This document shows, in pieces, positions 7,774 to 60,900 of a stretch of DNA of 64,000 bases; positions within the stretch are counted from its first letter, which is position 1, and every line of letters begins with the position of its first letter. The notes beneath the pieces are model-generated. The model worked only from the letters and a program-made list of their open reading frames with translations. It was not told the origin of the DNA and searched no databases. The stretch spans positions 62,001-126,000 of the IMG/VR virus record IMGVR_UViG_3300031576_000001; one strand, given 5' to 3'. This DNA comes from a virus. The position numbers and the translations under genes were made by a program.

Positions 7774-8300
7774 ACCCTGCGGTCAAGTTCTGGCAGGGGG
7801 GTCAGGGCTTTCGGTGGGACGACTCCCCCCTGGACGAGATCCGGGTTACGTCCACGGACGGCTACGGGGCGGGTTTTGCGCTCTTCGGGTCAGATGAGGT
7901 CCATGACCAGCTAACGGCCATGTCAGGCAACCAGCCGTTGCACGAGTTCTTGACGCTGGGGGTGGGCACCTGGCTTATCTCGACCCGGACTTACGAGAAG
8001 TACACGCTGGCGTCGCGGACCATTCCCCCGCTCATTCCCTTGGTCTACGCGCCCAACGAGCCATTGTACTTCAGCCTGAGAGGGTTGTGGACCAAGGAAG
8101 ACGAGTGGACGCTTTCACTGGACCCGAGGGCGCCCTCCCCGGTGGTGGCTCGCGTACAGATGCCCCCCTCTTTGCTAACCGATGACTACCTCTCCCTTCA
8201 CACGGCGCTTTTATGCCTGAGATCGCTCGCACCCGAGATTGTGTCCTGTTTTACAAGGGCGATGTGTACGCCGTGGAGACCAACCTCACGTTCTGGCTAG
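7698..8300 (+). CDS. tandem paralogue 2 of 3, beta-rich virion-type protein
   Basis: Second copy of the array, with start MPSTYPPRTRDC. It keeps YEKYTLASR and SLRGLWTKEDEWTLSLDPRAP. In-frame TTA at 8211-8213 overlaps the ATG of copy 3 and aligns with the TAG of copy 3. The 29 residues after it are read from copy 3 in the wrong frame. Probable mature length is 171 residues. The three copies arose by tandem duplication and have since diverged outside the conserved block. Confidence 0.75.
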   Translation: MPSTYPPRTRDCVVSYRSVRYSVRVDPAVKFWQGGQGFRWDDSPLDEIRVTSTDGYGAGFALFGSDEVHDQLTAMSGNQPLHEFLTLGVGTWLISTRTYEKYTLASRTIPPLIPLVYAPNEPLYFSLRGLWTKEDEWTLSLDPRAPSPVVARVQMPPSLLTDDYLSLHTALLCLRSLAPEIVSCFTRAMCTPWRPTSRSG

Positions 8301-8716
8301 GAGGTCAGGGCGCCAGGTGGGTACAGTCCCCGGGAGACCACCGTGTAGTCACCACGTCGGACGGTGGTTTTGGGGGGTACTTCCTCTGGGGCAGTGATGA
8401 GGCGTCAGACCAGTACAACGCAATGACCGGGCAGTTCTTGCGGTATGGTTACGCCGTGTTCTCTGCGGGTGGTAGTGTCTTCTCGACCACGACGTATGAA
8501 AAGTACACTTACGCCTCTCGACTCATCCCACCCCTCGTCCCTCTGATTTACAATGCGGGGGAGCCTCTGTACTTCAGCCTGAGAGGGTTGTGGACCAAGG
8601 AAGACGAGTGGACGCTTTCACTGGACCCGCGCGCTCCGGCGTCCGTAGCTGGGTACTGTGTGCAAGTACCCAAGACCGTCAACCGCTTCTTCCTGGGTGT
8701 GTACACCACCCTCTAG
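8213..8716 (+). CDS. tandem paralogue 3 of 3, beta-rich virion-type protein
   Basis: Last copy of the array, 167 residues, and the only one with a canonical stop (TAG) at the homologous C-terminus VYTTL. It therefore defines where the other two copies should end. It shares the SLRGLWTKEDEWTLSLDPRAP block and the RDCVLFYKGD start region. No signal peptide or membrane segment is present. Multicopy, non-enzymatic appearance and location beside head genes suggest a structural or decoration role. Confidence 0.75.
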   Translation: MPEIARTRDCVLFYKGDVYAVETNLTFWLGGQGARWVQSPGDHRVVTTSDGGFGGYFLWGSDEASDQYNAMTGQFLRYGYAVFSAGGSVFSTTTYEKYTYASRLIPPLVPLIYNAGEPLYFSLRGLWTKEDEWTLSLDPRAPASVAGYCVQVPKTVNRFFLGVYTTL

Positions 8717-15630: not shown

Positions 15631-18567
15631 ATGGCATTCCTCAAGTACGCCCGCTCCACGGTGCTGAAAAGCGACGTGAACTTCGATTCGTGGAACGATA
15701 GCCACAAGGGCAATGCGTTTCAGAATCGAGAGGCGCGTCGTATTGTGGTGGACCGCGTAAGCTCCAAGGACTACCTGCTTTCGCACTGTACCATTGTCGC
15801 CAGCGCCGACGCAGAAGAGTCAGGACTACCTCTGGGTAGGCACCTTGTTGACGGCTTTGAGGTCAATCGCCAGTTCTCTGACTTCTACGTAAAGCAAGAC
15901 TCTGAACTTTTTTTCAACAACAACCATGATGGGTGGTCTCGTCCGTTGATCCTGGGGACGTACAAAACATTTATAGGCTCCCCCTCATACATTGAGCACT
16001 GTCAAATACCAGAGTACGCTAAGGGTAAAATCCTAGACGCTGTAGCCAGGGATGTTGGCCCCTCAGTTTACGTTGACATTCTTGTGGGTACAGAGCGCAA
16101 GCACAAGCCGCTTATCGCTGCAATTCTGTCGAGAAAGATCAACGCCCTCAGCATGGGGTGTAGCATCCAATTTTCTTGCTGCACGCAATGCGGTAACGTG
16201 GCTGCGGACGAGACCGAGCTTTGTTTTCCTCCTGGGACTAGAGTGCTTAGGTCGGATGGCCTCTACACTCCGATAGAAGAGTTGGTCTCTGGTGATGTGG
16301 TTCTAACACACAAAGGAAACGCGCGTACTATCACTGAGACCACTTCTAGAGACTACTCTGGGGAACTAGTGCAACTCCGTGTTGACGGCGTGCCCACACC
16401 ACTACGATCCACACACTCCCATCCGTATCTTGTTTTCCGCCCGAAGACTGTTTGTGCTTGTGGTTGCGGTCAACCCCTAGCAAGAACGGTAGAGCACAGG
16501 AGAGGAGCCGCTAAGGCATTTGAGAGAATGTATCTTCCTGGGCACAACACTCATGAAGGCATTGCACAACACAAGCTAGTTTCTATCACTCCTGAATTTG
16601 TAGCGGCGCGAGACATAGCGGAAGGAGACTATCTAGCCTTTCCTGTGACTGGGGAGTTCTGCAATACGCCGGATGGCACCGAAGAGAAAGCTAAACTCAT
16701 AGGTTACTTTGCGTCAGAAGGCTCATTTATTAAAAGACGAGGTAAGCGAGTCGGGGTTTCATTTGCTTTTGGGGCTCACGAGTCAGAAACTTTGGTAGCT
16801 GATGTTGTAAAACTTTTGGAGTGCGTCTTTGGTGGGGTTAGAAAGGCGCCCGTTGTGCTCTGGGAGGATGCTGTCCAGAGGGATGGTACACTGCCTGTAA
16901 AACGACGCTCAACTAGCCGGGTGGTCCCTGAAGACCTTACTTGCCCATCGTGCGCAGCGCCCTCTGTGTACTTGAGAAACGCTTCATTCAAAAAAGGATC
17001 TCAGTGCTACCAGTGCAAGGTATGCCACAGGTCTTTTGTACTCGGTGCAGAGCGATATAAGCGGGCGCGTGTGTACCAGAGTGGAAACTCCTGTGACGTG
17101 CGTTTCTTGTGCGACAAGGCCGCCGACTTTTTCTATCGGCACTGCGGCGAATACGCCTCGACGAAGAGACTATCACCCGAGGTGATGTCGTGGCCACAAG
17201 AGCTACAAAGACACGTTTTGTGGACTTGGTTGTGTGGTGACGGCTCCCAAACTTCTGGTGAGGGTGTGAAGGGCACGAGCGTATCCTTTAACTTGATAAG
17301 TCAAATGCACCTCATCGCGGCAAGGTGTGGTCTTTATGCTAGGCGCGCTGTTGTCTTTGGTGGGCGTAGTGTTGCCGTGGGGGATGTCGTAGGGTCAGAT
17401 GGGATTGCAAGATTGCGGGATGCACGGGGGTGGCTGCCTACTTTTGTATTGGTCCTTCCGGCGCCTCAAGACCTCAAAGGAATTCTACGGTTCACAGACA
17501 AAGCACGTAAAACTCTTGCTCGCGTTACGTCGGGATACAAGCGGGTGGGTGATTACCTGCTCTATCGTGTTCGTAAGAAGTCTTGCGTTCCATACTCTGG
17601 TAAAGTTTACAATGTGGAAGTGGCTGATGACCATTCTTATGTGGTTGATGGTGTTGCAGTACACAACTGTAACCATATCAAATTCTTCAAGGGTAACTAC
17701 TTCATTGACCCTTACGGTAAGAGGCGCCGCGTAGGAGAGTTCTGTGGACACGCCTCTGACCTTGAGTCTAACAAATTCGTTGAAGCCTCTTGGGTGGGTA
17801 ACCCCGCTTTCGATGGCGCTGTGCTCAGGAACATCCTCAACGCCAGTGACTTTGATAAGACCGCCTACGGCAACCCCGACACGGTGTTCTCGTTCCCGTC
17901 CGTGTCCTTCGTACCCCCCGCAGGCGTCAAGCTAGCTAATCAGCAAGACGACCCCTTTGCTACGCCCTCTCAGGGTGACGCTGGTGCGGGCGACAGCAAA
18001 GCCAAGACTGAGAAGCCACCCCTAGAGGACGCCGTGAAAGACCTTCACGACACCCTCAAGGAAAAAGTGGTCGAGAATGTGCGCAAAGAGCTAGACGACG
18101 CCACGGGGGACGCCGCGCTCAAAGTCACTCAGTCTCCGCAGAACGAAAACGAGAACCTGATCAAGTCAGCCGCTAGCTCGCCCCTCTGGCGTAAGCGGGT
18201 GGCTTTCCTCTCCCCGTACCTCAAGAGCTACACGCCCTCCTTTAATAGGAGGCTGCTGGCGGGCTTGATTAGGGTACAGGCTTTTGGGTGGGGAAATCTC
18301 AAGACCGCAGGCTACGCACCCGAAGAGGTCTTGGTTCTGTCCTACCTCGTTGACCGAATGAAGGGCAAACCAGCCTTTGCCGGGGAGCGTAGGCTTTACG
18401 CCGCGCTTAGCAAGGCTGACCTGAACGCCCCTTGTCACTCGGTTTCCCTCTCTCTCGGTAGACCGCTGACCGCTACGGAGCAGTCCCTTGTGCTTGAAAA
18501 GTGCAACCTCCTCCAAAAAATACACGCAAACTCACTGATACAATCAACCTTAGAAGAGGCACTCTGA
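15631..18567 (+). CDS. prohead maturation protease interrupted by an intein
   Basis: 978 residues, of which 198-679 are an intein. The spliced protein has about 496 residues. The N-extein carries the serine-protease core: a His in SYIEHCQIPEY and a likely nucleophile Ser in NALSMGC, followed by a zinc-like CTQC. The intein sits just before the third Cys of that cluster (ETEL/CNH), and the C-extein resumes with CNHIKFFKG and EASWVGNPAF, typical of large-phage head proteases. The C-terminal 200 residues are helical and charged. In-frame TTA at 18550-18552 is five codons before TGA. The enzyme would cleave scaffold and head proteins during capsid maturation. Confidence 0.85.
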   Translation: MAFLKYARSTVLKSDVNFDSWNDSHKGNAFQNREARRIVVDRVSSKDYLLSHCTIVASADAEESGLPLGRHLVDGFEVNRQFSDFYVKQDSELFFNNNHDGWSRPLILGTYKTFIGSPSYIEHCQIPEYAKGKILDAVARDVGPSVYVDILVGTERKHKPLIAAILSRKINALSMGCSIQFSCCTQCGNVAADETELCFPPGTRVLRSDGLYTPIEELVSGDVVLTHKGNARTITETTSRDYSGELVQLRVDGVPTPLRSTHSHPYLVFRPKTVCACGCGQPLARTVEHRRGAAKAFERMYLPGHNTHEGIAQHKLVSITPEFVAARDIAEGDYLAFPVTGEFCNTPDGTEEKAKLIGYFASEGSFIKRRGKRVGVSFAFGAHESETLVADVVKLLECVFGGVRKAPVVLWEDAVQRDGTLPVKRRSTSRVVPEDLTCPSCAAPSVYLRNASFKKGSQCYQCKVCHRSFVLGAERYKRARVYQSGNSCDVRFLCDKAADFFYRHCGEYASTKRLSPEVMSWPQELQRHVLWTWLCGDGSQTSGEGVKGTSVSFNLISQMHLIAARCGLYARRAVVFGGRSVAVGDVVGSDGIARLRDARGWLPTFVLVLPAPQDLKGILRFTDKARKTLARVTSGYKRVGDYLLYRVRKKSCVPYSGKVYNVEVADDHSYVVDGVAVHNCNHIKFFKGNYFIDPYGKRRRVGEFCGHASDLESNKFVEASWVGNPAFDGAVLRNILNASDFDKTAYGNPDTVFSFPSVSFVPPAGVKLANQQDDPFATPSQGDAGAGDSKAKTEKPPLEDAVKDLHDTLKEKVVENVRKELDDATGDAALKVTQSPQNENENLIKSAASSPLWRKRVAFLSPYLKSYTPSFNRRLLAGLIRVQAFGWGNLKTAGYAPEEVLVLSYLVDRMKGKPAFAGERRLYAALSKADLNAPCHSVSLSLGRPLTATEQSLVLEKCNLLQKIHANSLIQSTLEEAL
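16222..17667 (+). mobile_element. LAGLIDADG intein in the protease gene (482 aa)
   Basis: The intein begins with Cys (CFPPGTRVL) and ends with VAVHN before Cys+1. Block B is RSTHSHPYL, with the expected Thr-x-x-His. Two LAGLIDADG-type motifs are visible, LIGYFASEGS and WTWLCGDGS, separated by a Cys-rich insertion (CPSC...CYQCKVC) that looks like a zinc finger. The C-terminal splicing block is YNVEVADDHSYVVDGVAVHN. Base composition is more AT-rich than the exteins, consistent with recent transfer, yet none of its 482 codons is TTA. Confidence 0.93.
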
Positions 18568-21540: not shown

Positions 21541-21556
21541 CAGCCTGAAAAGGCTG
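21541..21556 (+). terminator. hairpin with GAAA tetraloop behind the capsid gene
   Basis: CAGCCT-GAAA-AGGCTG forms a perfect 6-bp stem with a stable GNRA loop, seven bases after the TGA. It lies immediately before a longer terminator-like hairpin and may protect the abundant capsid mRNA from 3' decay. Confidence 0.6.
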
Positions 21557-21565
21557 TGAAACAAA

Positions 21566-21603
21566 ACGAGGGGGGTGCTTCCGCAAGGGGGTGCCCCCCT
21601 CGT
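21566..21603 (+). terminator. rho-independent terminator of the capsid unit
   Basis: ACGAGGGGGG at 21566-21575 pairs perfectly with CCCCCCTCGT at 21594-21603 across an 18-base loop, followed by CTATTTGT. A 10-bp GC-rich stem with a T-containing tail right behind the capsid gene is the clearest terminator in the window. Confidence 0.8.
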
Positions 21604-21669
21604 CTATTTGTCCAGCCTGATGGTTTTGTAACGTGTAGTAGTCTAGCCCTGACAAGGTTACGAAACCTG

Positions 21670-21698
21670 TTGACAGAGCATCTTGGGCAGTTTACTAC
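21670..21698 (+). promoter_or_regulatory. possible sigma70-type promoter for the LAGLIDADG-methyltransferase gene
   Basis: TTGACA at 21670-21675 is a perfect -35 box; 17 bases downstream is TACTAC at 21693-21698, a weak -10. It lies between the capsid terminator and the ATG at 21709, so the gene may have its own transcript. Confidence 0.4.
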
Positions 21699-21708
21699 AC
21701 ACTCCAAG

Positions 21709-24387
21709 ATGAACACCGAGCACAGTTACGGGCTAACGCGCGAGCGTTTGGTAGACCTTTACGTTACCCAAGGTCTAACGGACGTTGAGATTGGGGAGTC
21801 CCTGGGGGTAAGGTACTCTGCGATCTCCCGGTTGAGGGAGAGGTGGGGGATACGCAACCTGTTGGCGTCGGAGAGGTTGGGGTTGCCTGAGACCCTCACG
21901 GAGAACCAGCAACAGCTTTTGCTGGGCACCATGCTAGGTGATGGTAGGTTGACGGGTTCTGGGTCGGAAACAGCCCTACTTACCGAGTACCATTGCCTCA
22001 AGCAGTCAGACTACCTCATGTGGAAGGTTGCCCAGTGGGGGAGCTTCATCAACAGGGTTTCTGACCGTACCAACGGGGAGTACCGTGGAAAAGTGTACTG
22101 CACTCATGCTAGCAGGGTTTTTCGCCCCTACTGGGAGATGTTTTACCCAGAGGGTAAGGGGCACAAGACCCTGAAACTGCTGGACCCTAAGAGGGTTGGA
22201 CCGTTGGCGTTGGCGGTGTGGTACCTGGATGACGGTAGCAAGAGCAACACGGGTACATTTCGTTTTTCCCTGGGTCCGCCCGACCCGGAGAGTTTCGAGG
22301 TTGCCTTGGGTATTTTCCGCAACCTTGGGATGCACCCCGCACGGTACGGGGAGGCTGGGGACAGCACAATCATTGTGCAGACTCGTAAGGACATCACTCT
22401 CTTTGCAGAGCTAGTGTCCCCACACATTCCAGATTGTATGAGCTACAAGATGGAGTTGAAAGCCAAGCGTGGCGGACCCCCCCCTAGAGACTTGTTGACC
22501 CCGCAAGCCTTGCAGCCTTTGATTGATCGAGACTTGTCAGCCATGGAAATGGCTGAGATTTTCTCAGTTTCTAGGAATAGCGTGGGGCGAGCCTTGGACC
22601 GGATGGGGGTGCCACACCAGCCTACCGGGCGACCCGCGGGTAAGCGTGGTTTTGACTTGGGGGTATCCGAGGCACGCATTCTCAAGATGGACCCTCTCGC
22701 CCCAGACTATCGTGAGAGAGTGTTGGGTGTGCTTTCGATGACGGAGTTCCCTGGTAAAGAGCCCACTACGCTTGAGGCTCGCAAGGACATTGCCTCCTTG
22801 AAAACTTCCCCTGTGCGTGTTCAAGACGGTAAAATTGTGGGAGCGTCCAAGCTGGGTCAGCGGGCGTGCTTGCACTTCTTCGGTTACCGTTTGGATGGCA
22901 CGTACCGTGATAACCTGTCGGCGCGTAGGGGGTGGTACGATACCGAGACTCTTGTGAGGGCGGTGAACTTTCAGATAACCCACCACGACCCCGTGACCCC
23001 TAAGAGGGTCTGGCGGGCGGTGCAAGCCATTCTTCGAGCGCCTTGCAACTTCCGCCCCACAATTGCTAAAGCTCTGGTGGACGCTTTCTGCCCTCCCGGT
23101 GGGGTGGTGTTGGACCCTTGTGCTGGTTACGGGGGTCGAGCCCTGGGCACTCTGGTCACGGGGCGCACCTACGTAGGCGTGGACCCGCACCCCAAAGCAA
23201 AAGAAGCCTACCACGGCTTGTTTGCCTTGTTGGGTGGTAATGCCACGTTTCACCACGCGCCTTATGAGGAGGTAGCCCTGGGGGACTTGCAGGCTGACTT
23301 GGCGTTGACCTCACCCCCATACTTCTCGGTTGAACGGTACTCTGACGCCACTACTCAAAGCTGGGTACGGTACAAGACGTGGATGCTGTGGGTCAACGGT
23401 TTTCTGCGTCCCTTGCTGACCAAAACGTACCAGCACTTGAAGCCGGGCGCTCTTTTCTTGTTGAACGTCAAGGACATTCGCAAGGGTAAGGACACCTACC
23501 CCTTGGTTAGCGAGTCCCGGCGTCTTGCCGAAGAGGCTGGGTTTGTATCTGAGCCAGACCTGTCTTTGCCTCTTGGTAGGCTCGGTCCAAAGGAGAAGAG
23601 TAGTGAGCCTATTCTTGTGCTCAGGAAGCCTGGACCTGGCACCCCTCGACCTGTTGAACGCTCACAGCCTGTGGTCGCTACCCAGATGGCGCCAACGGTT
23701 GCAGAGCCTCCACGCCCGCGCAGGTACGTACACCCTGAGAATGCTGCAAGTAGGGAGGTCGTTTGCAAGGGGTGTGGGGTTACATTCACCGCGCACCGCA
23801 GTGACCGAGAGTTTCACAGCGAAGCCTGTTACGTCAAGTACCGCAGGCGTCAGGCTAGAGAGGAGGTGCCCAACAAGACCTATCGTACCTTCACCTGTGA
23901 GAAGTGTGGGGTCTCTTGGGACACGGAAGCCCTGGGACGCTTTACCCTCTGCGAGGGGTGCAGAGCCACACACACCAGAGAGAGTACAGAGGGTAAGCGT
24001 GAAAAGACGTGCCACTACCGCCACTGCCAGAAGACCTACACGGATACCTCTCGGTTGAACGGCACCAAGTTTTGCTGCGCGGAGCACCAGCGCCGTGAGA
24101 AGCTGTTCAAGTCGGGTCAAGTAACCTCGGAAGACCAGTTCAGAGACCCCAGCAAACCTACGTACCGCACCTGTAAACTGTGTAAGACCCAAGGCACCGA
24201 AGAGGAGATCCTTGGCGGTGTGTGCCTCCTCTGCCGTGCCAAGCTGCGCGAGAAGACGTGCAAGAAATGCAACGCGACCTACACAGACGCCTCTGAGCGA
24301 AACACGAGGCGGTACTGCTTTGCTTGTCGCCCCGACGACACCCTACCCGTGACCCCGCCTCTGGGTATACTGCACGACCTGGACTAG
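21709..24387 (+). CDS. HTH-LAGLIDADG endonuclease-DNA methyltransferase-zinc ribbon fusion
   Basis: ATG at 21709 is preferred over a GTG at 21556, which lies inside the terminator region; it gives 892 residues. Domains in order: a helix-turn-helix (about 6-50); a LAGLIDADG endonuclease with LLLGTMLGDG near 70 and LAVWYLDDGS near 170; a second HTH near 277-300; an amino-methyltransferase with AdoMet motif DPCAGYGG near 470 and catalytic SPPY near 535; then from about 685 a series of Cys-rich zinc ribbons (CKGCG, CEKCG, CKLCK, CKKCN, CFAC). The SPPY motif indicates N4-cytosine or N6-adenine methylation. It may cut target genomes and methylate its own site. None of its 892 codons is TTA. Confidence 0.88.
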   Translation: MNTEHSYGLTRERLVDLYVTQGLTDVEIGESLGVRYSAISRLRERWGIRNLLASERLGLPETLTENQQQLLLGTMLGDGRLTGSGSETALLTEYHCLKQSDYLMWKVAQWGSFINRVSDRTNGEYRGKVYCTHASRVFRPYWEMFYPEGKGHKTLKLLDPKRVGPLALAVWYLDDGSKSNTGTFRFSLGPPDPESFEVALGIFRNLGMHPARYGEAGDSTIIVQTRKDITLFAELVSPHIPDCMSYKMELKAKRGGPPPRDLLTPQALQPLIDRDLSAMEMAEIFSVSRNSVGRALDRMGVPHQPTGRPAGKRGFDLGVSEARILKMDPLAPDYRERVLGVLSMTEFPGKEPTTLEARKDIASLKTSPVRVQDGKIVGASKLGQRACLHFFGYRLDGTYRDNLSARRGWYDTETLVRAVNFQITHHDPVTPKRVWRAVQAILRAPCNFRPTIAKALVDAFCPPGGVVLDPCAGYGGRALGTLVTGRTYVGVDPHPKAKEAYHGLFALLGGNATFHHAPYEEVALGDLQADLALTSPPYFSVERYSDATTQSWVRYKTWMLWVNGFLRPLLTKTYQHLKPGALFLLNVKDIRKGKDTYPLVSESRRLAEEAGFVSEPDLSLPLGRLGPKEKSSEPILVLRKPGPGTPRPVERSQPVVATQMAPTVAEPPRPRRYVHPENAASREVVCKGCGVTFTAHRSDREFHSEACYVKYRRRQAREEVPNKTYRTFTCEKCGVSWDTEALGRFTLCEGCRATHTRESTEGKREKTCHYRHCQKTYTDTSRLNGTKFCCAEHQRREKLFKSGQVTSEDQFRDPSKPTYRTCKLCKTQGTEEEILGGVCLLCRAKLREKTCKKCNATYTDASERNTRRYCFACRPDDTLPVTPPLGILHDLD

Positions 24388-32467: not shown

Positions 32468-32884
32468 ATGGCGTGTACTTGTTCGTGCAACCCGACGTAT
32501 CCCGGGGGTTTTGCGCCTGCGGTGTCCCCTGGGGTTTTCGTAGTGTGTGCCGTGTTTTCGCGGGGCGACTTGCCGATCTTCTTCAAGGACAGCAGCGGTA
32601 ACCCTACCAGTCCGTACCTGGTGGCGTACAGTCTGTACCAGCAAGGCGCGTGTGGGGCTGTCTTGGTGGGGTGTGCAGACAGGACGCCCGTAGAGGCTGC
32701 TGTGGGGGAGTATTACGTCTCGGGGGTCGCGGCTTCGCCTGGGCAATGGTTCGTGGAATGGACCTACCAGGAGACCAGTACCTCTCCGCTAACCGGGGTC
32801 ATCTTTGCGTTCACGGTGTTTGACCCGGCTCGCTACTGCCCCAAGTGTTGCGGCTCCCCCTGTCTCTGTCCCTCTGGGTGGTAG
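32468..32884 (+). CDS. beta-sandwich structural protein with terminal cysteine clusters, 138 aa
   Basis: The middle is paralogous to the 37683 protein: both contain GEYY.S, a W-x-x-E-T-x-x-SPL segment and a final beta strand (FAFTVFD / QEFQVID). The N-terminus has CTCSC and the C-terminus CPKCCGSPCLCP, a likely zinc- or disulfide-bonded knob not found in the paralogue. It is a lone rightward gene inside a leftward island and may be served by the GTTTCCATATAG element upstream. Probably a tail or baseplate component. Confidence 0.65.
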   Translation: MACTCSCNPTYPGGFAPAVSPGVFVVCAVFSRGDLPIFFKDSSGNPTSPYLVAYSLYQQGACGAVLVGCADRTPVEAAVGEYYVSGVAASPGQWFVEWTYQETSTSPLTGVIFAFTVFDPARYCPKCCGSPCLCPSGW

Positions 32885-37682: not shown

Positions 37683-38189
37683 ATGTCAGGGGTACTTTTT
37701 TACCGCGGTCAGCAGCTAGGGCGTAACGACCTCAACCTCTTCTTGACCAACGCCAGCGACCACCCCACGCAAGCCGCTGAGATTTGGTACGCCCTCTATG
37801 ATTTCACCACGGGCTTTGAGTGCCTCGTAGGAGACGAGCGCCGTACTCCCCTCATGCCCAGCCTGGGTGAGTACTACGCCTCGGTCGTGATCCCTACGGA
37901 CGCCAGGATCGGGGGCTACAGGGTACGGTGGTTCTTCCGAGAGACCGTGGGCTCACCGCTGCAATCCGTGGTCCAAGAGTTTCAGGTTATCGACAAAAAC
38001 CAGTTCAGTCCGTCCGTATTCAGTGACACCATGACGGATTTGATACGTCGTCTGCGTATTCTGGTCCGAGATAACTGCTTGGATGGGGCAGAAACTATTG
38101 AAATTGTGATTGACCAGGACCAGAAAGAGATTACACTGGAGGATCTCTGGGACGCACTTCATGACCTCTCCCCCCTCCCCCCATCCTGA
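37683..38189 (+). CDS. N-terminal part of a fractured tail/baseplate protein plus N-intein
   Basis: Residues 1-131 are N-extein. They contain a beta-sandwich related to the 32468 protein (GEYYASVVIP, VRWFFRETVGSPLQ) and end in LRILVRDN. Residue 132 is Cys1 of an intein (CLDGAETIEIV), and only 37 intein residues follow before TGA. The C half is encoded at 39066. Splicing would join LVRDN to SPDQNYRFVPP, a junction that reads through naturally in baseplate-type proteins of large phages. Expression of a functional protein therefore requires trans-splicing. Confidence 0.8.
   Translation: MSGVLFYRGQQLGRNDLNLFLTNASDHPTQAAEIWYALYDFTTGFECLVGDERRTPLMPSLGEYYASVVIPTDARIGGYRVRWFFRETVGSPLQSVVQEFQVIDKNQFSPSVFSDTMTDLIRRLRILVRDNCLDGAETIEIVIDQDQKEITLEDLWDALHDLSPLPPS
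38076..38186 (+). mobile_element. split intein, N-terminal half (37 aa)
   Basis: The segment starts with Cys and shows block A (C-L-x-G-x-E-T-I-E-I), then QKEITLEDLWDAL, the start of the usual second strand and helix. At 37 residues it is far shorter than the roughly 90-100 residues of common N-inteins and resembles the atypical split class typified by AceL-TerL. Confidence 0.8.
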
Positions 38190-39075
38190 ACTGGTACCCT
38201 ACTTGGAAAAGCACCAAATTACTTGGGAAGTGTTCTCGAACACACGTCTTAAACCACGTAGCGTGGTAGCTAAGAGACGCGCGATTGTCACTGAGATACA
38301 CGAAACTGGAGCAACCTGGGCGCACATGGTGGCGATTACGTGTTTGAGTCAAGGGTCGATTCAACGCTTGAGTCAAGCTAAAGGTAACCCTCTAGTGAAG
38401 CAACGAAAGCAACAAATTGCAGCAGAGCTTGGACGCCAAGGGAAAGGTGCTAAAAAGCCGTGGTTGACCTTGAAGCTCCAAGCTGATTGGGAATCTGGAA
38501 AGTTCGACTTCCACAAAGGGCGTATTCGTCCACAGTTTGAAGTAGACAAGATTCAAGCGTCTTGGGCGGACCCTGCACGACATGATAACCAAGCTCAAAT
38601 GATGAAGTCTTGCTGGCAAGACCCTAACTTTCGAGACAACCTTCTATCTTTTCACCGATCTGACACAGAACGGGTAAAACGCTCCCAGGCTCAGGCCCAG
38701 CGTATGCTCGATCATCCTGCAACTTACATGGGGGGCCGTGGCGAGTATGTTTCAACACAAAAAGCTACAGTATCTAAAACCTGGGTGCGTAGTTCTTTTG
38801 AGAAGCGGTACGTTGAAATACTAGAACGCGACCCAACTGTTCTTTCTTACGAGTATGAGCCTCTTTATGTTTTGCCGGATGGTAGGCACATCCTTCCTGA
38901 CTTTCTAGTGCGCTATCGGGACGGAAAGCAAGAGCTTGTTGAGGTTAAGGCTAAGTGGGTACTTGCTATGCCTGTCACATATAAAGCACAAGTGCGCCTA
39001 GCACTAGCGCGAGAGCTTGCAAATAGAGAAGCACTTGCCTTTAAAATCGTTACGGAGAATGACCTGTGGCCTTGA
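38161..39075 (+). CDS. free-standing homing endonuclease, PD-(D/E)XK type, inside the split intein
   Basis: ATG at 38161 is preferred; upstream in-frame sequence contains a TTA at 38131. It encodes 304 residues. The N-terminus includes an HTH-like DNA-binding region (WAHMVAITCLSQGSIQRLS), the middle is basic, and the C-terminus has a nuclease core: SSFEKRYVEIL, then LPDFLV and LVEVKAKW, giving the D...E-x-K arrangement. It overlaps the N-intein ORF by 29 bases and the C-intein ORF by 10. A nuclease ORF between split-intein halves is the known fractured-gene layout. Base composition is more AT-rich than its neighbours. Confidence 0.85.
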   Translation: MTSPPSPHPELVPYLEKHQITWEVFSNTRLKPRSVVAKRRAIVTEIHETGATWAHMVAITCLSQGSIQRLSQAKGNPLVKQRKQQIAAELGRQGKGAKKPWLTLKLQADWESGKFDFHKGRIRPQFEVDKIQASWADPARHDNQAQMMKSCWQDPNFRDNLLSFHRSDTERVKRSQAQAQRMLDHPATYMGGRGEYVSTQKATVSKTWVRSSFEKRYVEILERDPTVLSYEYEPLYVLPDGRHILPDFLVRYRDGKQELVEVKAKWVLAMPVTYKAQVRLALARELANREALAFKIVTENDLWP

Positions 39076-39440
39076 CTACTATTGAACGTAACCAAATACG
39101 TGCAGCATACCGGACAGGGCGACTAACCACCTGGGCTGTAAATAAAGAAGGGCAACGAGAGCTTCAACCTATCCAGGCTGTACACCAACACAACTTGCAG
39201 TCTGATGACTTGTACGCCGTTACCACAACACGGGGCACATCGTATATGACTGGGGGTCACCGGGTATTTCGCACCCCCACATTGAAGGTAGAAGCGTGCT
39301 CTTTGACGCAAAACTTCACTGTCCTTGGCGAAACCATCGTGACCTCAAGACTTGTCGGTAAAGCCAGAACGGTCTATGACTTGACTGTAGGTGTGTGGCA
39401 CAACTTCAGGTTGTGCCGTAGTGGGTTGGTGGTGTCAAAC
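39066..39440 (+). mobile_element. split intein, C-terminal half (125 aa)
   Basis: Contains block B (YMTGGHRVF, with Thr-x-x-His), the linker region without any endonuclease domain, and the C-terminal block TVYDLTVGVWHNFRLCRSG ending VVSN before Ser+1. The penultimate residue is Ser rather than the usual His, which may slow splicing. Confidence 0.8.
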
Positions 39441-40004
39441 TCACCGGACCAAAACTACCGCTTCGTCCCCCCCTCTAGGGAGGCTACTATCTCTCAGTTC
39501 AATCGTGTCTTTGGTTTTCTGTGGGAGGATTACGAGATGGACGAGTATATTCAGCGCTCGCTCGACCTGATCATCGCGTCCCCACCTCGTACACCTTTTG
39601 CCAGCGTCGAGCAAATGATAGTGCAGAAGAGGGAATGGACAACACTGTTGCTTACAGGTGCGGCAACATTTGCAATAAGGGCAATGATGCTAAACTGGAT
39701 TGCGAATGAATTTGATTTTTCCGTGGGGGGTATCTCTCTAAACATAGAGAAGTCGTCTAAGTACGAGAGTGCGAAAGGTAACTTTGAAGAGGAGTTTACC
39801 CGCCAGCTAGAACAAAGTAAAAAAACGGTACTGATTATCAGAGGGCTACAGCAGCCCCGTTTCGGAATCGGCGTGAGATCCTCCTTCGGGAGTTTTGTGG
39901 GTAGAAATGTGGTAACCCCTCGTAAATTCATAGGTTTCTTAGCTCTGGTATTGGGGCTATTGCACTTACACTACAGTGGTGCTACCGTACTGGTGTGTCA
40001 ATAA
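39066..40004 (+). CDS. C-intein plus C-terminal part of the fractured tail/baseplate protein
   Basis: GTG at 39066 starts a 125-residue C-intein, followed from Ser+1 (39441) by the C-extein: SPDQNYRFVPPSRE, a helical core, FDFSVGGISLNIEKS, LIIRGLQQPRFGIG and the terminal PRKFIGF. The extein belongs to a structural family of large phages whose members, as I recall, end at this last motif. In-frame TTA at 39939-39941 follows IGF directly; the 20 residues after it contain a second TTA and look random. The 3' end was rebuilt by the endonuclease inserted next to it. Confidence 0.8.
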   Translation: MALTTIERNQIRAAYRTGRLTTWAVNKEGQRELQPIQAVHQHNLQSDDLYAVTTTRGTSYMTGGHRVFRTPTLKVEACSLTQNFTVLGETIVTSRLVGKARTVYDLTVGVWHNFRLCRSGLVVSNSPDQNYRFVPPSREATISQFNRVFGFLWEDYEMDEYIQRSLDLIIASPPRTPFASVEQMIVQKREWTTLLLTGAATFAIRAMMLNWIANEFDFSVGGISLNIEKSSKYESAKGNFEEEFTRQLEQSKKTVLIIRGLQQPRFGIGVRSSFGSFVGRNVVTPRKFIGFLALVLGLLHLHYSGATVLVCQ

Positions 40005-41362
40005 AAGGCTCCTGTTTGTGCCCTTGCTGTGGAAAAGACATGGCACCCCATGCAATACATGGTCACACCGCGGTCTGTGAGGCTTGGAAAGCGTCTCGTG
40101 GGAAACCCTGGCCCCAGTTCAAATACAGTTACAGTCGTGCGAAGTACCTACCTGGCTTGGTGGAGGGTGTAGACTTTCTTCGATGCCACGTTTGCCTAAC
40201 CAATGGTTGGGACTTCAGGTTCAATCGTCTAGTGCAGCACTTGGCAATCCACGGGTTGTCTGAGTCGGAGTACTTGAGCCTATTCCCAAGTAAGCTCGTG
40301 CGTTTGGCACTGACCAACGAGCGTCGCAAGGCTTCTGTTCGTGCGAAGTACGGAGTAGACTTCATCGCGCAAGTCGAGGAATGTAAAGAGAAGTCGAGGA
40401 ACACCATGGTAGAACATTATGGTGTTCCCTCAGCTATGCAGTCCGAAGATGTCCGAGCGAAAGCCACTAAAACCAACCTTGAGCGGTATGGTTCGGAAAA
40501 CCCGTTTGGTTCCAAAGAGGTTCAGAAGAAAATACGAAAGACCCTTTTGTCTAAGTATGGGGTTGCGAATCCCCAACAAGTGTCTGACATACGAACCAGA
40601 ACGCTACAGACTAACAAGGAACGGTACGGGTCGGAGCACTTCTTCCAAACGCCTGATTTTGACACGGTACGAGCGGCAACGTGCCAAGAGCGTTATGGTG
40701 CTCCTCACCATATGCAATCGGTTGAGGGTCGGGCCAACCATGAAGCGGCATTCATTGCAAAGTACGGGGTACCTAACCCATTTCTTATCCCTGAGATACG
40801 GGACCGTGCTTATGCCACTAATGTAGCTAACCATGGGGGCGTACACGCCCTTGCACACCCGGACGTGATTGCAGCACGGAAAAGAAACCTCTTGGCACTC
40901 TACGGCGTGGATAACATATCTAAGGTGCCTGCAATCAAGGACAAAATCATAGCAAAAGTGCGTGCCAGCTTCTCTGGTGCCCCTAAGAGAACTACACCCG
41001 AGCGGATAGTTGAGGGGTTCTCACCTGAATGTGTGGTTTATTCAGGTGATTGGTCCTACTGGGTTACATGGGCTAACGGCTACCATAAGAACCCAGACTT
41101 TGTGATTCTCACCCCGCAACAGTTGGAGGAGTACAAGGCTGGCGCAGTCCTGAATGCCCTCCGTACTAGTAAGGTTATTGAGGTCAATGGGGACTTTTGG
41201 CACACTAAGTACAGAGGTGTGACACGAGAGGAGCGGGAACAACAATTCTTTGAGGGTTACGCTTCCATAGGGGTAACCTGTCTCATTCTTTGGGAGTTGG
41301 ATCTTTACGCTTCAACGTCAGACGCTATACGTGCCAAAGTTGAGGCATTCTGTTGTTCCTAA
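39995..41362 (+). CDS. homing endonuclease, zinc fingers, KYG repeats and Vsr-like nuclease core
   Basis: 455 residues, start GTG or ATG near 39995. The N-terminus holds zinc-finger-like CPCCGK...H...C and CHVC...H...H motifs. The middle contains about nine repeats of the type RYGxxNPxQ (KYGVDFIAQ, RYGSENPFG, KYGVANPQQ, RYGSEHFFQ and others), a DNA-binding module common in such nucleases. The C-terminus has NPDFVIL and VIEVNGDFWH, the catalytic core of the Vsr-like EDxHD family. It was inserted just before the last eight codons of the 39066 gene, which are duplicated beyond its end. No in-frame TTA. Confidence 0.85.
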   Translation: MSIKGSCLCPCCGKDMAPHAIHGHTAVCEAWKASRGKPWPQFKYSYSRAKYLPGLVEGVDFLRCHVCLTNGWDFRFNRLVQHLAIHGLSESEYLSLFPSKLVRLALTNERRKASVRAKYGVDFIAQVEECKEKSRNTMVEHYGVPSAMQSEDVRAKATKTNLERYGSENPFGSKEVQKKIRKTLLSKYGVANPQQVSDIRTRTLQTNKERYGSEHFFQTPDFDTVRAATCQERYGAPHHMQSVEGRANHEAAFIAKYGVPNPFLIPEIRDRAYATNVANHGGVHALAHPDVIAARKRNLLALYGVDNISKVPAIKDKIIAKVRASFSGAPKRTTPERIVEGFSPECVVYSGDWSYWVTWANGYHKNPDFVILTPQQLEEYKAGAVLNALRTSKVIEVNGDFWHTKYRGVTREEREQQFFEGYASIGVTCLILWELDLYASTSDAIRAKVEAFCCS

Positions 41363-41735
41363 GTAAGAGATCCCAAATCGGGCCTCGCAAATTTATAGGT
41401 TTCTTATCTGGTAAGCTGTCAGCTAAGCCTGGTCTGTCAGTGCTAGCCGTCACGGGGCATACCCCGCCTCTACGCAAAGCGTGCTTGGTCTCTCTGCGTA
41501 GCCACCTGTGGGCTTGTCTCTTCAAGAAGCCCTTGGTCTTGCTACCACACCCCCGGCACATTTTGCAGCTACAGCTAACGTAAGCTCTCACGTCCCAAGC
41601 CCCTGTGGATAACTTGAAGCCGTGTGCGCGACGTAGTGCTTGGTACTCAGGTCCATCTTTCAGGGAGCATCCTGTCTGGTCATACGCTCCGGTAACAGAA
41701 GAGTTCACGGCTCTTTTGCTTTCACGGACACACAC
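41325..41735 (-). CDS. possible Cys/Arg-rich protein
   Basis: Leftward ORF of 136 residues with CSCKMCRGCG followed by a strongly basic helix (LKRQAHRWLRRETKHALRRG). A GTG is the only long start. In-frame TTA (plus-strand 41364-41366) would end it 1 base from the convergent endonuclease stop. Its 3' part runs antisense over the displaced relic at 41383-41406, which weakens the case. A small zinc-binding protein is plausible but not secure. Confidence 0.4.
   Translation of the reverse strand: MCVRESKRAVNSSVTGAYDQTGCSLKDGPEYQALRRAHGFKLSTGAWDVRAYVSCSCKMCRGCGSKTKGFLKRQAHRWLRRETKHALRRGGVCPVTASTDRPGLADSLPDKKPINLRGPIWDLLLRNNRMPQLWHV
41383..41406 (+). pseudogene. displaced 3' end of the tail/baseplate gene
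   Basis: Eight codons encoding PRKFIGF followed by TTA are repeated here from 39918-39941. The copies differ at two third-codon positions (CGT/CGC, TTC/TTT) and diverge immediately after the TTA. This is the original gene end, cut off when the endonuclease inserted with its own recoded copy. Confidence 0.75.
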
Positions 41736-46563: not shown

Positions 46564-47439
46564 ATGCCCAGGCGAGAAATACCAAAATGTGTGTTGGAAG
46601 CAGCACTAGAGTCAAACCCTATGATTACTCTTGTGGGCTTGGCAATTGTCTGTCAGTGCTCTGCGACATCTGTAGCTAGGAACTTGGCGAGACATAGCCT
46701 GCGAACGAAACGCTGGTCCGAGAGGCGACACAGCGACGAAACTAAGCAAAAGATGCGAGATAGTGTACCAGACAGATCGGGTGCTCGTAATCCCAACTTT
46801 GGGGTGAAGGACCGTCCTTGGCTAGAAGGGGATAAGAACGCTTTGCGACAATGGCACAAGGCTAACCCTGATTTCGGAGAGAGGCAAAAGGGAGAAAATA
46901 ACCCTGTACACAAGGTAAAGCATCTCTACAATGATGCCAGCTATGTGCTCCGCATAACGTCTGGGATACGTGCTCATGCTAAAGCTAAAGCCGGGCACAC
47001 TTACGAGGAAACCTACGGTGGGGCGAAAGCAGAAGAATATAAGGAACAACTGCGCCGTGCGTCCCCTGCTAGAATGGCAAAGTTCAAGCGAAAAGTCACG
47101 GCACCTGAAGCAGCCGTAGCGGTTATGCTCCAAAGTCTTGGGGTGTGCTATGTGGAGCAAGCGCCTTTGGGTTACTACACTGTTGACTTCTTGGTTCCTA
47201 ACGTGAAGCTGGTTATCCAAGCTGATGGGGACTTCTGGCACGGACACCCCGATAAGTATACCGTAGAATCGCTTACTCCCACACAAAAGAAACAGAAGCG
47301 TCTGGACTCCTCAACCAACTCTTACCTCGTCTCGCGAGATTATCGCGTGCTACGCCTTTGGGAGAGTGACATCAAAGATAAAGCTGCGGAGTGCCTGGCA
47401 CGTATCAAACAATACCTGGAGGTCACAAATGGAGAATAA
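46564..47439 (+). CDS. homing endonuclease, NUMOD-like motif and Vsr-like core, in the actin gene
   Basis: 291 residues, with GGGAGAAGCT before the ATG. N-terminal HTH-like region (TLVGLAIVCQCSATSVARNL), then GARNPNFG and GENNPVHK, NUMOD3-like DNA-binding motifs. The C-terminus has YTVDFLVPNVKLVIQADGDFWHGHPDK, the Vsr-like/EDxHD nuclease core. It sits inside the 5' end of the actin-like gene and ends by overlapping the rebuilt start at 47429. AT-richer than its hosts, yet no in-frame TTA. Confidence 0.85.
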   Translation: MPRREIPKCVLEAALESNPMITLVGLAIVCQCSATSVARNLARHSLRTKRWSERRHSDETKQKMRDSVPDRSGARNPNFGVKDRPWLEGDKNALRQWHKANPDFGERQKGENNPVHKVKHLYNDASYVLRITSGIRAHAKAKAGHTYEETYGGAKAEEYKEQLRRASPARMAKFKRKVTAPEAAVAVMLQSLGVCYVEQAPLGYYTVDFLVPNVKLVIQADGDFWHGHPDKYTVESLTPTQKKQKRLDSSTNSYLVSRDYRVLRLWESDIKDKAAECLARIKQYLEVTNGE

Positions 47440-54624: not shown

Positions 54625-54635
54625 GAGTGCATCGC

Positions 54636-56384
54636 ATGACCACGCCAGAGGATACCTACGCAGACTTCGAGGGTAACGAGTCCTTCAACAGTCTGGTCAA
54701 GAAGCACCACGTAGCTCCCACCACCCTTCGTCAGTGGTGGTTGGCGCACTTTGGGGCAGTTCTTGTAGCTGAGAGGGGTAAGCGTATCCAAAGTGCCAGT
54801 GCCGTGATCACAGGGCGCTCACGTAAGGGCGCTACCCTTGTTTACAAGACGCTCACGGACACTTGCTGCCGCTGCGGGGTGGCTATGACCCTGACTGTAC
54901 TACAGAAGGCGATGACCAAGAGGGTCATCTGTGAGCCTTGTGAAGCTCAAGAGAGGGGCGTGGACCGTTACTGTCCGGTGTGTGGTTTCGGCTGCATCGG
55001 TAACAAGGGCTTGTCTACCCACATGCACCGTCCAGGGGTGACGGACCCAGAGGGTCATAAGCAGTACCTTGAGCAGAAGTCACAAGAAGAGGAGGCTGCT
55101 CGGTTCGAGGGTAAGGAGGAGGGCACGGATTACGTGGTGTGTCGTCTCTGCGGTCAGCGCGACACTTGGCTAGGTCGGCACCTCAAGGCGGCGCACCAGA
55201 TGGGAGCCGAGGACTACCGCATCCAGTTTTCCGGGGCGCTAGTCAGCTCCAAGAGTACCTCCGAGAAGCGTTCCAAGGCTCTTGTGGCTTACAGCCGAGC
55301 GCACCCTACGGCGGGTCAAAAGAAAACTGTACTCTGCTCCTCGTGTGATCTGCCGCATGACGTGGGGTGGTCGTTCTCACTTATTATACACGATAATCGG
55401 TGCGACGACTGTAAGGCGCGCGAGGAGGAGCTTGCAGAAGAGACCTACTGGGAAGGGAAAACGGAGCGTGAGGATTACGCAGTCTGTCAAGTCTGTGGGC
55501 ACAAGGCGAACAACCTCAACTCCCATATTATGTCGGAACACCCGGAGTTGGTGGGTAAGTATGTCGTGGTCTACCCTGGTAGCCTCATCTCCTCGCTCAA
55601 GAGTCCGATCCGTGACAAATCAAAAAACGTAGGTTCGCAGCACACCGCAGAGACCAAGCACTTGATGAGTGTGAACGCTGGACGCTGGAATAAGGGACTC
55701 ACTAAGGAGACGGATGAGCGTGTAGCCTGTGGTGCTGAGGCTCGAAAGGGGTATCCAGGGTGGGCTAAGGGCCTTACCAAGGAAACAGACCCACGGATAG
55801 CAGCACTAGCTGAGAAACTGTCTGCGTTGAGGCTGGGGGTACCACACGAAGCGGCTAGAGTTGTCTTGACTACGGAGGACTTTCTCCCTTACCGGCTAAA
55901 GAATGGTAAGGTGGTGGTAGGTTGGGCGTCAGCGGGTTTGGGCTACAGCGTACCCACAGTCACCCGCGAGGCAAAGCGGCTTGGGTTGCCCACCTATTCC
56001 AAGTGCGTTACGCAGACCGCTCTCGTCGCTCAGTTGGCTATCCTCTTGGGTGGTGCCACCTTTCAGCAAGAGTGGTCCTCCTCATGTTACCGAAATCCTC
56101 CCACGGACCACCCTTTCCGGTTTGATGGTTACTTCCCAGACCACAAGCTCTTGGTGGAATTTGAGGGGTTTTGCCACTATACCTTTCCGTCAGTTTACTT
56201 CCCTCTTGGTCGAGAAGTCGAGTACGCAGCCATGCAAGAGCGTGACCGTGAGAAGGTACGTCAGGTAAAGAAAGCCGGTGAGTTCCAACTCCTTGTCATC
56301 CATGAGTCGGAACCCTTTGCAGACCCCGGGTACCTCACCCAACGTCTACGTGACTTGGGTTTCCAAGTCACGCTCCCCGAGTAA
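54636..56384 (+). CDS. homing endonuclease with zinc fingers and Vsr-like core
   Basis: ATG at 54636 gives 582 residues. Several zinc-finger-like motifs follow an HTH-like start (APTTLRQWW): CCRCG, CPVCGFGC...H, CRLCG...H..H, CSSC...CDDC, CQVCG...H..H. A duplicated WNKGLTKETDERV / WAKGLTKETDPRI is NUMOD-like. The C-terminus has FDGYFPDHKLLVEFEGFCHY, the catalytic core. It lies in the gap behind the sheath gene. The 582 codons include no TTA. Confidence 0.85.
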   Translation: MTTPEDTYADFEGNESFNSLVKKHHVAPTTLRQWWLAHFGAVLVAERGKRIQSASAVITGRSRKGATLVYKTLTDTCCRCGVAMTLTVLQKAMTKRVICEPCEAQERGVDRYCPVCGFGCIGNKGLSTHMHRPGVTDPEGHKQYLEQKSQEEEAARFEGKEEGTDYVVCRLCGQRDTWLGRHLKAAHQMGAEDYRIQFSGALVSSKSTSEKRSKALVAYSRAHPTAGQKKTVLCSSCDLPHDVGWSFSLIIHDNRCDDCKAREEELAEETYWEGKTEREDYAVCQVCGHKANNLNSHIMSEHPELVGKYVVVYPGSLISSLKSPIRDKSKNVGSQHTAETKHLMSVNAGRWNKGLTKETDERVACGAEARKGYPGWAKGLTKETDPRIAALAEKLSALRLGVPHEAARVVLTTEDFLPYRLKNGKVVVGWASAGLGYSVPTVTREAKRLGLPTYSKCVTQTALVAQLAILLGGATFQQEWSSSCYRNPPTDHPFRFDGYFPDHKLLVEFEGFCHYTFPSVYFPLGREVEYAAMQERDREKVRQVKKAGEFQLLVIHESEPFADPGYLTQRLRDLGFQVTLPE

Positions 56385-57963: not shown

Positions 57964-60900
57964 ATGACACAACCCTACACTTACAACCGCCGCCGAGAAG
58001 CCGCTGTCGAAGAGCCTACCGAGGAGAACATCGGAGAGGTGGTGGTAGCTGAGTACATTGTATTCCTCTGGGCGGTAGACACTTACCTACGGTACCTGGA
58101 GGAGTCCGCTGGTGGTGTGGCTGACGATATAGCGGGCGCTGGACTGCGCATCCTACGCAGTCTGGAGGGTGCGGTAGCCGAGGGTGTCAAGACGCTCTTG
58201 ACCTCTGGCGTGTCCACCCCTGGGGCAAAGGCACTCCTAGAGGCTGCTTTTGCAAAGGCGGTAACCAACGAGGATGGTGTGTCGGCGCGGGCGTACAAGA
58301 TTCGAGCCGTGATTACCCGTGGCGGCGCTGCCCTCATCAAGCACATTTTTGGTACGAGCCGTAAGGCAGCCAAGGAAGTGTGGGACGGTCTTGCTGCGGT
58401 TCGTCAGGACGACCCTGACATGGCGCTAAGTAAGCTAGACATCATCACGCTACAGAACAAGCGGCTGGACAAGTGGATTAGCGTAGCCTCCGAGAGTGCA
58501 AAGCCTCGGTCGGCGCCGCCCATGAGTGCGGTAGCAGAGGCGGCGGCTGTGGCCACGGAAGCAGCTACGTCTCTCATGGAGAGCAAGCTCAAAGAGACGG
58601 GTTCTGTACCAGGCTCACAGGCTAGTGCGCAAGCTCAGGACGCCCACACCGCCAACGTGAAAGCCGTGGAGGACGACGCAAAGGCCGCCGCGCAAAAGGT
58701 GATGAAGCAAACCGGCGAGGAGGATAAGCCGGTTACCAAGAGTGAGGCGATTGCGATTGCTACTGCGGTGGCAGCGGCTACCAAGGCAGCGCCCGCAATA
58801 CCGGACAACATCCCGAAGGCTTTCACCAATAACGGTCGCCCTCTTGACCCGGAGCAAATGGCGGCTGCGTTGACGGACGGCAAGGTGCTTGTAGCAGCCG
58901 GCGCCGGTAGCGGCAAGTGTGTCCGCGGGGACACACTCATCGGGACATTGGGCGGTACCATCCGTATTGATGGGTGTCAACATAACCCACTGGTGCGCGC
59001 TGTACGCTCGGATTCCCTTAGTGTGGAGGCTAGGGCGGGGCAGTGGCTCGACATGGGAACGGACTTCGTTACCGAGGTAGAAACTCGGAGTGGAATTCGG
59101 ATTCGAGCCACTAAGGAGCACCCTCTTTTGGCGTGGAACGGCGCTGCTACCTGGGTCAAGGTGGGGGACATGCTAGGGGGGGAGCACCTCTTTATTCTTC
59201 CTGGGTACGCCCTCGGGACCGGGGCAGAAACGGTGGACCCCGATGAGGCATATCTTATAGGTCTCTTCATGGGGGATGGGTGTACCTCGAAGTACACCGT
59301 TTCGTGGTCTCGTGGGGGAGAATATCTACCCAAGCACTTTCATGCACTAGCCAGGCAGTTCTGGGGTGTGGATACGATCAAAGTCTACCCGAGGGCGGGT
59401 AGCTTGAGTGTGGAGCACCGTATTTCATCAAAAGACCTCGTGGACCGGCTTGTCGCACAAGGGGTCGCGTATCCCTCTGCGCGTGTGAAGGAGGTACCCT
59501 CTTGGCTCTTGCAAGCAAGTGATGCAGAGCGCATTCGATTCTTGCAAGGGCTCTTTGATACAGACGGGACCGCAGCCGGTTCAAGATGTGTGGAATGGGT
59601 CTCTGCATCCGAGACCCTGGCTCGTCAGGTACATCAAATGCTCATCGGGCTTGGCGTGGTGGGAATGTTGAAACCTAAACACGTTGAGGGGTACGAACAC
59701 ACCTACTGGCGCGTGCTCATTGGCTCTGAACAGATGCGAAACTTCAGAGCTGTAGTGGGTTTCAGGTACGAGTTGTCCAAAGTGGCGGCAGTTGATGACC
59801 TCTGTGACCGAGAGTGTAACCCAAACGTGGATGTTTACCCACACACCGCAGACCTACTTAAGAGAGTGCGGGAGTCGTGGAAGAAGCAAGGGCGCTGGCA
59901 AGGACACTCGCAGTCTCTTTTGATGGATGACCGTTGGGTCGTGGTCAAAGACTACCTGCTAGGGAAGAGGAACCCGTCTCGTCAGAAGCTACTTGATTTG
60001 ATACAAGGCTCTGAGAGCGACGAGGCACATCTTTTGGAGGCTCTGTCCCACTATTACCTGGACGAAGTGGTGACTGTGCGTAGGGACGTAGAGCGGTGCC
60101 AGGTTTATGATTTTCATGTGCCAGAAGCCCACAGTTTCGTGGCAAACGGGATCGTGTCGCACAACACCACCTGTGTGATTAGCCGTATTGCTTATCTCAT
60201 TCAAGACAAGAATGTGCGTCCAAAGCGCATCATAGCAGTAACGTTTGCCAAGAAGGCTGCTGGTGAAATCAAGGAGCGTGTTCACGCCAAGACCGGGCTT
60301 ACGGACAAGACTGGTCCCTTCATGGGGACGCTAAACTCCATGGGGATGCGTTTCATAACAGGCTCTCCTGATGACGGTGTGCCTACCTTCGGCACGCCTG
60401 AAGAGGCTGCCATGATGCGTCGCCCTCGCTTCATTTCGGGGAAGGGGGGGATCAGCCCGTCTGTCTTCACCAAGACCATTACGGGCATCTTCAACGAGTG
60501 TAGCCCTGACGCGCTGTCTAAGCACACCGGTTTCGCCAAGGCTGTCTTTGCTAAGGGTGCTCCCAACGCGAAGAAGATGGGCACGTTCATTAGCAAGTGG
60601 CGTGGTAATCAGATTACCTGGCAGGACGCCCGCGCTCAAGCCACCTCCAAGTCAGAGAGTCAAGCTGCTTTCTGGTACGAGTGTTACATGGGCTTGAAGG
60701 GTGATATTCCCGGGTGGCGTCCTCCCTGTCCGACCAAGCTGCACACCAAGTTCATGGACCGCTACCGTCGAGGTGGTGAGCGTCTAGGGGACATGGACGA
60801 TCAGCTACAGATTTTCCATAACATTCTCAAGAGGGACATTTCAGCACGCAAGCTGGTTCAAGGCATGTTCGATCACGTCATCGTCGATGAGGGTCAGGAC

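Follow-up and report, generated by a model that had tools for sequence, protein, structure and literature searches.

Can a phage whose structural gene is broken into two separate reading frames still make the product as a single protein? The question is raised by a locus in a 64,000-nucleotide stretch of viral DNA, here called the window (positions 62,001 to 126,000 of the 322,633-base IMG/VR record IMGVR_UViG_3300031576_000001); all coordinates are positions in the window unless a contig is named. A first-pass annotation, made from the sequence alone, had proposed that the gene is rebuilt by a split intein with a very short N-terminal half. The analysis reported here leaves us with little doubt that in a jumbo phage a putative connector gene has been broken at RDN/SPDQNYRF by a class 1 intein that is naturally split and has a short N-intein, that the intein halves would splice in trans, and that a TnsA-like nuclease would drive homing of the element.

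Organization of the fractured gene

The locus consists of three consecutive plus-strand open reading frames (ORFs) that overlap end to end (37683-38189, 38110/38161-39075 and 39066-40004). The first encodes the 131-residue N-extein of the putative head-tail connector (37683-38075, ending ...RRLRILVRDN), as delimited by a gapless junction alignment with uninterrupted relatives, followed by a 37-residue N-intein (IntN; CLDGAETIEIVIDQDQKEITLEDLWDALHDLSPLPPS, 38076-38186, stop codon 38187-38189) that begins with Cys1 (block A) and could be aligned with 16 N-inteins from other alleles at the same site, which are 30-37 residues long. The third has a GTG start and encodes a 125-residue C-intein (IntC; ...DLTVGVWHNFRLCRSGLVVSN, 39066-39440), recognised by a weak PF14890 match, profile matches to PDB inteins and a fold search. 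The C-extein (39441-39938) follows; it starts with Ser+1 (SPDQNYRFVPP...), extends as far as the native C-terminus, aligns with the relatives and matches phrog_17327. Comparison with the relatives puts this C-terminus at approximately PRKFIGF (39918-39938); the ORF itself continues to 40004. Between the two halves lies the ORF of a TnsA-like PD-(D/E)XK nuclease, a probable homing endonuclease (38161-39075), which shares 29 nt with the N-half and 10 nt with the C-half. This frame is open already from a TTG at 38110; the ATG at 38161 is the probable start, because homology begins at PHPELV. The first-pass annotation had laid out these five elements correctly to the base.

When joined, the exteins aligned over approximately 293 residues, at 45-63% identity, with contiguous genes on dozens of jumbo-phage contigs. 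The junction was gapless (RDNNPDRNYHF in relatives versus RDN plus SPDQNYRF in the window) and both window exteins were well conserved, with 60% identity. Exteins that sit on two separate polypeptides here correspond to one protein in the relatives; the finding that the first-pass annotation had named as fatal to its proposal, namely relatives with the exteins as separate intein-free proteins, was looked for, and the relatives carried one uninterrupted gene. The 322-kb record yielded no intact copy of the connector gene, and neither did the L013 contig and LR745208, which also carry the element.

The gene product is a putative head-tail connector, as suggested by a weak match to phrog_17327 (head-tail connector; E about 1.3e-4 to 1.4e-4, three of nine members matching) and by a relative in Tunturi_5 that is annotated as a head-tail connector (25% identity, E = 2e-21). 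The earlier description of the locus as a virion gene draws on this weak PHROG match and this one annotated relative, and the connector function is treated as putative throughout. A shorter ORF at 32468-32884 resembles the N-terminal domain of the connector (E = 9.5e-11), and similar upstream paralogues are present in several relatives.

Identification of a probable split intein

All of the class 1 split-intein motifs were found in the expected halves, with Cys1 in the N-half and TGGH, Asp, HN and the terminal Asn in the C-half. Cys1 (38076-38078) directly follows the N-extein and was kept in 17 of 17 aligned rows and in three alleles added later. In the C-half, block B (TGGHR) and block F (YDLTV..HNF) have the TxxH and D...H patterns, and block G (LVVSN) has a penultimate Ser and ends with N125, which is followed by Ser+1 (39438-39443). 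With 37 residues in the N-half and TGGH in the C-half, the element belongs to the short-IntN, or atypically split, kind, for which the published IntN range is 15-37 residues (PMC13014065).

Searches of the raw ORFs against Pfam, PHROG and NCBIfam gave weak intein and connector matches only, and the Pfam intein scores (PF14890) were under the curated cut-off. A profile built from three C-half sequences found solved PDB inteins (best E = 7e-4). When the model of the C-half was compared with known folds, the top 39 matches were all intein or Hint structures, with VidaL (6vgv) matched at a probability of 0.99. The split-intein claim gained support from both these matches and the placement of the motifs. 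On this sequence evidence, the window locus very probably encodes a class 1 intein that is split by nature and has a short IntN, and its two halves are predicted to splice the connector pieces in trans.

When the window C-half or nuclease was used as a lone query against viral contigs there were no matches, because the window copy is divergent and alignments were needed. An alignment-based contig scan with the C-intein, a second scan that added a further group, and removal of duplicates brought together a previously unlinked family. It comprises at least 20 alleles, of which the window copy is one, and each is split at the same codon (site A). The intein halves, usually with the nuclease, therefore recur in 19 further alleles, and this recurrence, like the match of the joined exteins to contiguous genes, makes a chance arrangement very unlikely; IntN was 30-37 residues and IntC 123-134 residues long in the 17 of the 20 alleles that were tabulated. 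When the IntC alignment was compared with 84,980 bacterial and archaeal genomes there were just two weak partial matches, so the element looks phage-borne.

The residue at the +1 position was Ser (15) or Cys (5) in the 20 intein-bearing alleles, whereas 61 non-redundant intein-free alleles had Asn (52), Lys (5), Asp (2), Ser (1) or Ala (1). A nucleophile is therefore present exactly where the intein requires one. The first-pass annotation had correctly read Ser at the penultimate position, where His would be usual, but this is no oddity of the single copy: Ser-Asn was found in the window and 13 relatives and His-Asn in the other six, making Ser the commoner family state. Several inteins that splice are without the penultimate His, which is not a strict criterion (PMC7664689). 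Ratios of nonsynonymous to synonymous substitution rates (dN/dS) were computed for 12 pairs, with dS saturated in many; in close pairs with unsaturated dS the ratio was 0.11-0.41 (IntN) or 0.11-0.28 (IntC), which indicates purifying selection on IntN where dS could be estimated.

Some features weigh against a working intein in the window. The AlphaFold2 (AF2) model of the C-half alone was mediocre, with a predicted local distance difference test (pLDDT) score of 62.5, probably because the IntN strands are absent from it. The penultimate His is replaced by Ser, the window intein is the longest branch of the family (2.64 versus a median of 0.42), and the copy is without a close relative for a dN/dS value of its own. 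Because of the penultimate Ser and the long branch, the window copy might splice slowly or have degenerated in part. It might even be a decaying copy that splices in relatives and no longer does so here, in which case the connector would consist of two non-covalent pieces or the phage would be defective at this locus. This is improbable: the long branch is accompanied by changes at six otherwise invariant positions, though all of these are outside the catalytic motifs, and the window intein keeps 18 of the 24 columns that are invariant among the other members together with every catalytic residue. In addition, neither intein-bearing ORF is broken, the two exteins show good conservation, and the nuclease has kept an intact ORF together with its active-site residues.

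Less probable still, to a degree that we consider slight, is a plain gene split by nuclease insertion, with the intein-like tails acting as dimerisation tails that have no splicing chemistry. Such tails would suit the sub-threshold Pfam scores, but Cys1, the block B His, the Asp, HN, the terminal Asn and the +1 nucleophile were strictly kept over 20 divergent alleles, and it is precisely in the intein bearers that the Asn at +1 gives way to Ser or Cys. Furthermore, the intein family at a neighbouring site of the same gene (site B, described below) includes contiguous, normally organised members (L011, L116 and L122).

The gap nuclease and mobility of the element

The first-pass annotation had described the product of the free-standing ORF between the intein halves as a PD-(D/E)XK endonuclease. 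This identification held, and the type could be refined to TnsA-like, as opposed to the Vsr/EDxHD type of the published fractured genes. PF08722 (TnsA-like) matched nine of ten aligned nucleases, the window copy with an E value of 5e-8; the residues invariant in the alignment (E214, P246-D247 and E261-V-K263) are intact in the window copy; and the AF2 model (pLDDT 82.5) matched the fold of TnsA in the PDB (1t0f/1f1z, probability 1.00). The site-A nuclease had no Vsr or DUF559 match, so that it does not belong with the Vsr-like/EDxHD enzymes. It is a probable homing endonuclease and would be expected to cleave the intein-free allele. No report linking TnsA, homing endonucleases and inteins in the sense of a gap nuclease was found in the literature searched.

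The nuclease was full length in 12 of the 20 alleles and shortened in two (L103 and L105); in another five (L093, L095, L100, L102 and L153) it had decayed or was missing. In L101 (4154-4990) the TnsA-like nuclease has been swapped for an HNH-type ORF, as read by eye, at the same split point. The flanks of L099 and L100 are 99-100% identical, and L100 differs by an exact 771-bp internal deletion (L099:4120-4890 versus L100:344/345) that removes the nuclease and keeps the split; the split state is therefore independent of a living nuclease.

Trees were compared for 78 exteins and for the inteins of the first 17 alleles. To explain intein presence on the extein tree takes 14 changes by gain or loss, and well-supported branches force no fewer than 11 of these; the total is about the same as with shuffled labels, so that presence is not clustered on the tree. 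Three His-Asn inteins group together on the intein tree (99/96) while their exteins are split between both main clades. The extein data reject the His-Asn grouping in the approximately unbiased (AU) test (p = 2.3e-5), and two further tests of intein and extein conflict gave AU p values of 3.6e-5 and 3.7e-4. This patchy distribution and the discordance with the host-gene phylogeny, which is the pattern of homing mobility, indicate that the site-A element moves horizontally. An assembly artefact, or a nuclease or transposase (TnsA) insertion unrelated to homing, might be suspected from the TnsA fold and the metagenomic assembly but is scarcely credible, since the same arrangement was seen in contigs of many independent metagenomes and in LR745208, with an identical split codon throughout. 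An RNA intron at site A was also considered and is unsupported, because an Rfam scan of the window gave no intron or other RNA family.

Proposed route to the joined connector

If the locus is a homing split intein, the overlapping ORFs would be translated into two precursors, one with the 131-residue extein and the 37-residue IntN and the other with the 125-residue IntC and an extein of approximately 166 residues. IntN would contribute Cys1 and the first Hint strands, and IntC the remainder (TGGH, Asp, HN and the terminal Asn). Once IntN and IntC had associated, Cys1 would undergo an N-S acyl shift, Ser+1 would take the transesterification, and cyclisation of Asn125 would give a 297-residue connector with the junction ...RDN-SPDQ...; in most of the intein-bearing relatives the joined sequence would read DNSPDR. 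The TnsA-like nuclease would most likely cut intein-free alleles at the junction, and repair would copy the whole cassette, a process of split-intein homing.

A second intein site and doubly fractured genes

The connector gene has a second intein site, site B, which reads DEF/DYSIGG in empty alleles and DEF/S...HN/SYSIGG in filled ones. The inteins at this site (L010, L012, L082 and L107-L133) have Ser1 and Ser+1, or in rare cases Thr+1, and most of them are split, with an IntN of approximately 31-43 residues and a DUF559/Vsr-related nuclease. Contiguous inteins are present at this site in L011/L121, L116/L117 and L122. PolB16, which is Ser1/Ser+1 (PMC10189870), has been called the sole natural cysteine-less atypically split intein (PMC13014065), which lends the site-B family an interest of its own. 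The site-B intein is split and accompanied by a nuclease in L153 (4736-5735) and rejoined in frame in L156 (4736-4783), where the nuclease has been lost and the ends of the deletion carry the short repeat AGGAG. L101, L105 and L106, alleles without a site-B intein, have Ser at the site-B +1 position in place of the usual Asp; these residues are possible footprints of intein loss.

Both sites were occupied in six distinct contigs, and both inteins were split in four of these (L094/L123, L095/L130, L013/L098 and L153/L113). Such an arrangement requires three polypeptides and two trans-splicing reactions for one protein. In L013/L098 (IMGVR 3300009514_000001; L013:1597-5321) the doubly fractured connector comprises five consecutive ORFs, in the order N-extein with the site-A IntN, TnsA-like nuclease, site-A IntC with the middle extein and the site-B IntN, Vsr-like nuclease, and site-B IntC with the C-extein.

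On balance we lean towards a broader proposal, in which TnsA-like nucleases form a class of homing endonuclease, undescribed in the literature searched, that makes atypically split inteins mobile. In these jumbo phages the connector gene would then be a two-site hotspot, and some of them (L094, L095, L013/L098 and L153) would assemble a single virion protein out of three polypeptides through two orthogonal in vivo trans-splicing reactions.

Comparison with known systems

Precedents exist for fractured genes, for atypically split inteins and for single genes that hold two inteins. Dassa et al. (2009) reportedly described genes fractured at split inteins, with a free-standing homing endonuclease ORF of the Vsr-like/EDxHD type in the gap. 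The window locus has the same break at a split intein and the same free-standing nuclease ORF; unlike those enzymes, the site-A nucleases are TnsA-like, with one HNH replacement, whereas site B does carry DUF559/Vsr-related nucleases.

As in AceL-TerL, GOS-TerL and CAT-TerL, a short IntN bears block A, a long IntC bears blocks B, F and G, and the host is a phage virion-assembly gene. Those inteins have the S2 split site and a natural IntN of up to 37 residues (PMC13014065), and the site-A IntN lengths are consistent with a split after the first helix. The site-A family differs in its host, a putative head-tail connector versus a terminase, in the penultimate Ser of most members, in the TnsA-like nuclease of the gap, and in its many alleles, among which repeated gain or loss can be traced. 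The short IntN is also shared with VidaL (16 residues), which was matched in the fold search, and PolB16 (15 residues), but the site-A IntN is approximately twice as long, with a later split position and Cys1/Ser+1. Haloarchaeal MCM genes can contain two inteins, with internal homing-endonuclease domains (PMC10643990). They resemble the connector gene in having neighbouring insertion sites that are sometimes both filled; in the connector, unlike MCM, both inteins can be split, so that three polypeptides have to be joined.

Against the literature searched, the host gene and site, the role of the TnsA-like nuclease, the Ser-Asn majority and the double fracture by two split inteins appear to be new. 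A 2026 paper names only five natural short-IntN split inteins (PMC13014065). The 20 natural alleles at one site allow Ser-Asn to be compared with His-Asn and Ser+1 with Cys+1, and the same gene adds a second, distinct Ser1/Ser+1 split family. Snapshots of the life cycle of a fractured gene are represented (empty site, split with nuclease, HNH swap, nuclease deleted with the split kept, and intein rejoined), which makes the origin, spread and persistence of split inteins directly testable. The inteins may find use as tools in protein semisynthesis and in the ligation of three parts.

Other features of the genome

A separate mobile insert lies at the 3' end of the connector gene (39918-41409, plus strand), where a DUF7487/homing-endonuclease ORF (39995-41362; PF24308, E = 1e-33; phrog_3339, homing endonuclease) is flanked by direct repeats of 27 nt each (39918-39944 and 41383-41409, 89% identical). 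Beyond the repeat of the insert, the native connector stop has been lost. No comparable repeats were found in the relatives searched, in which other nuclease-like ORFs follow the gene; the insert is probably independent of the split intein.

Elsewhere in the window there is a contiguous intein in a 978-residue ORF (15631-18567) and another, with LAGLIDADG, in a UvrD-like helicase (57964-62772); a third intein-like match is located outside the window (record position C1:191890-191964). Further nuclease-like ORFs are situated between structural genes, namely a LAGLIDADG domain fused to a DNA methylase domain (21556-24387), a Vsr/DUF559 nuclease with NUMOD3 (46564-47439) and a zinc-finger (ROS_MUCR) protein with a C-terminus that is nuclease-like in appearance (54627-56384). 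Three overlapping tandem paralogous ORFs (7180-7773, 7698-8300 and 8213-8716) have a common YTYASRLIPPLV / FSLRGLWTKEDEWTL motif.
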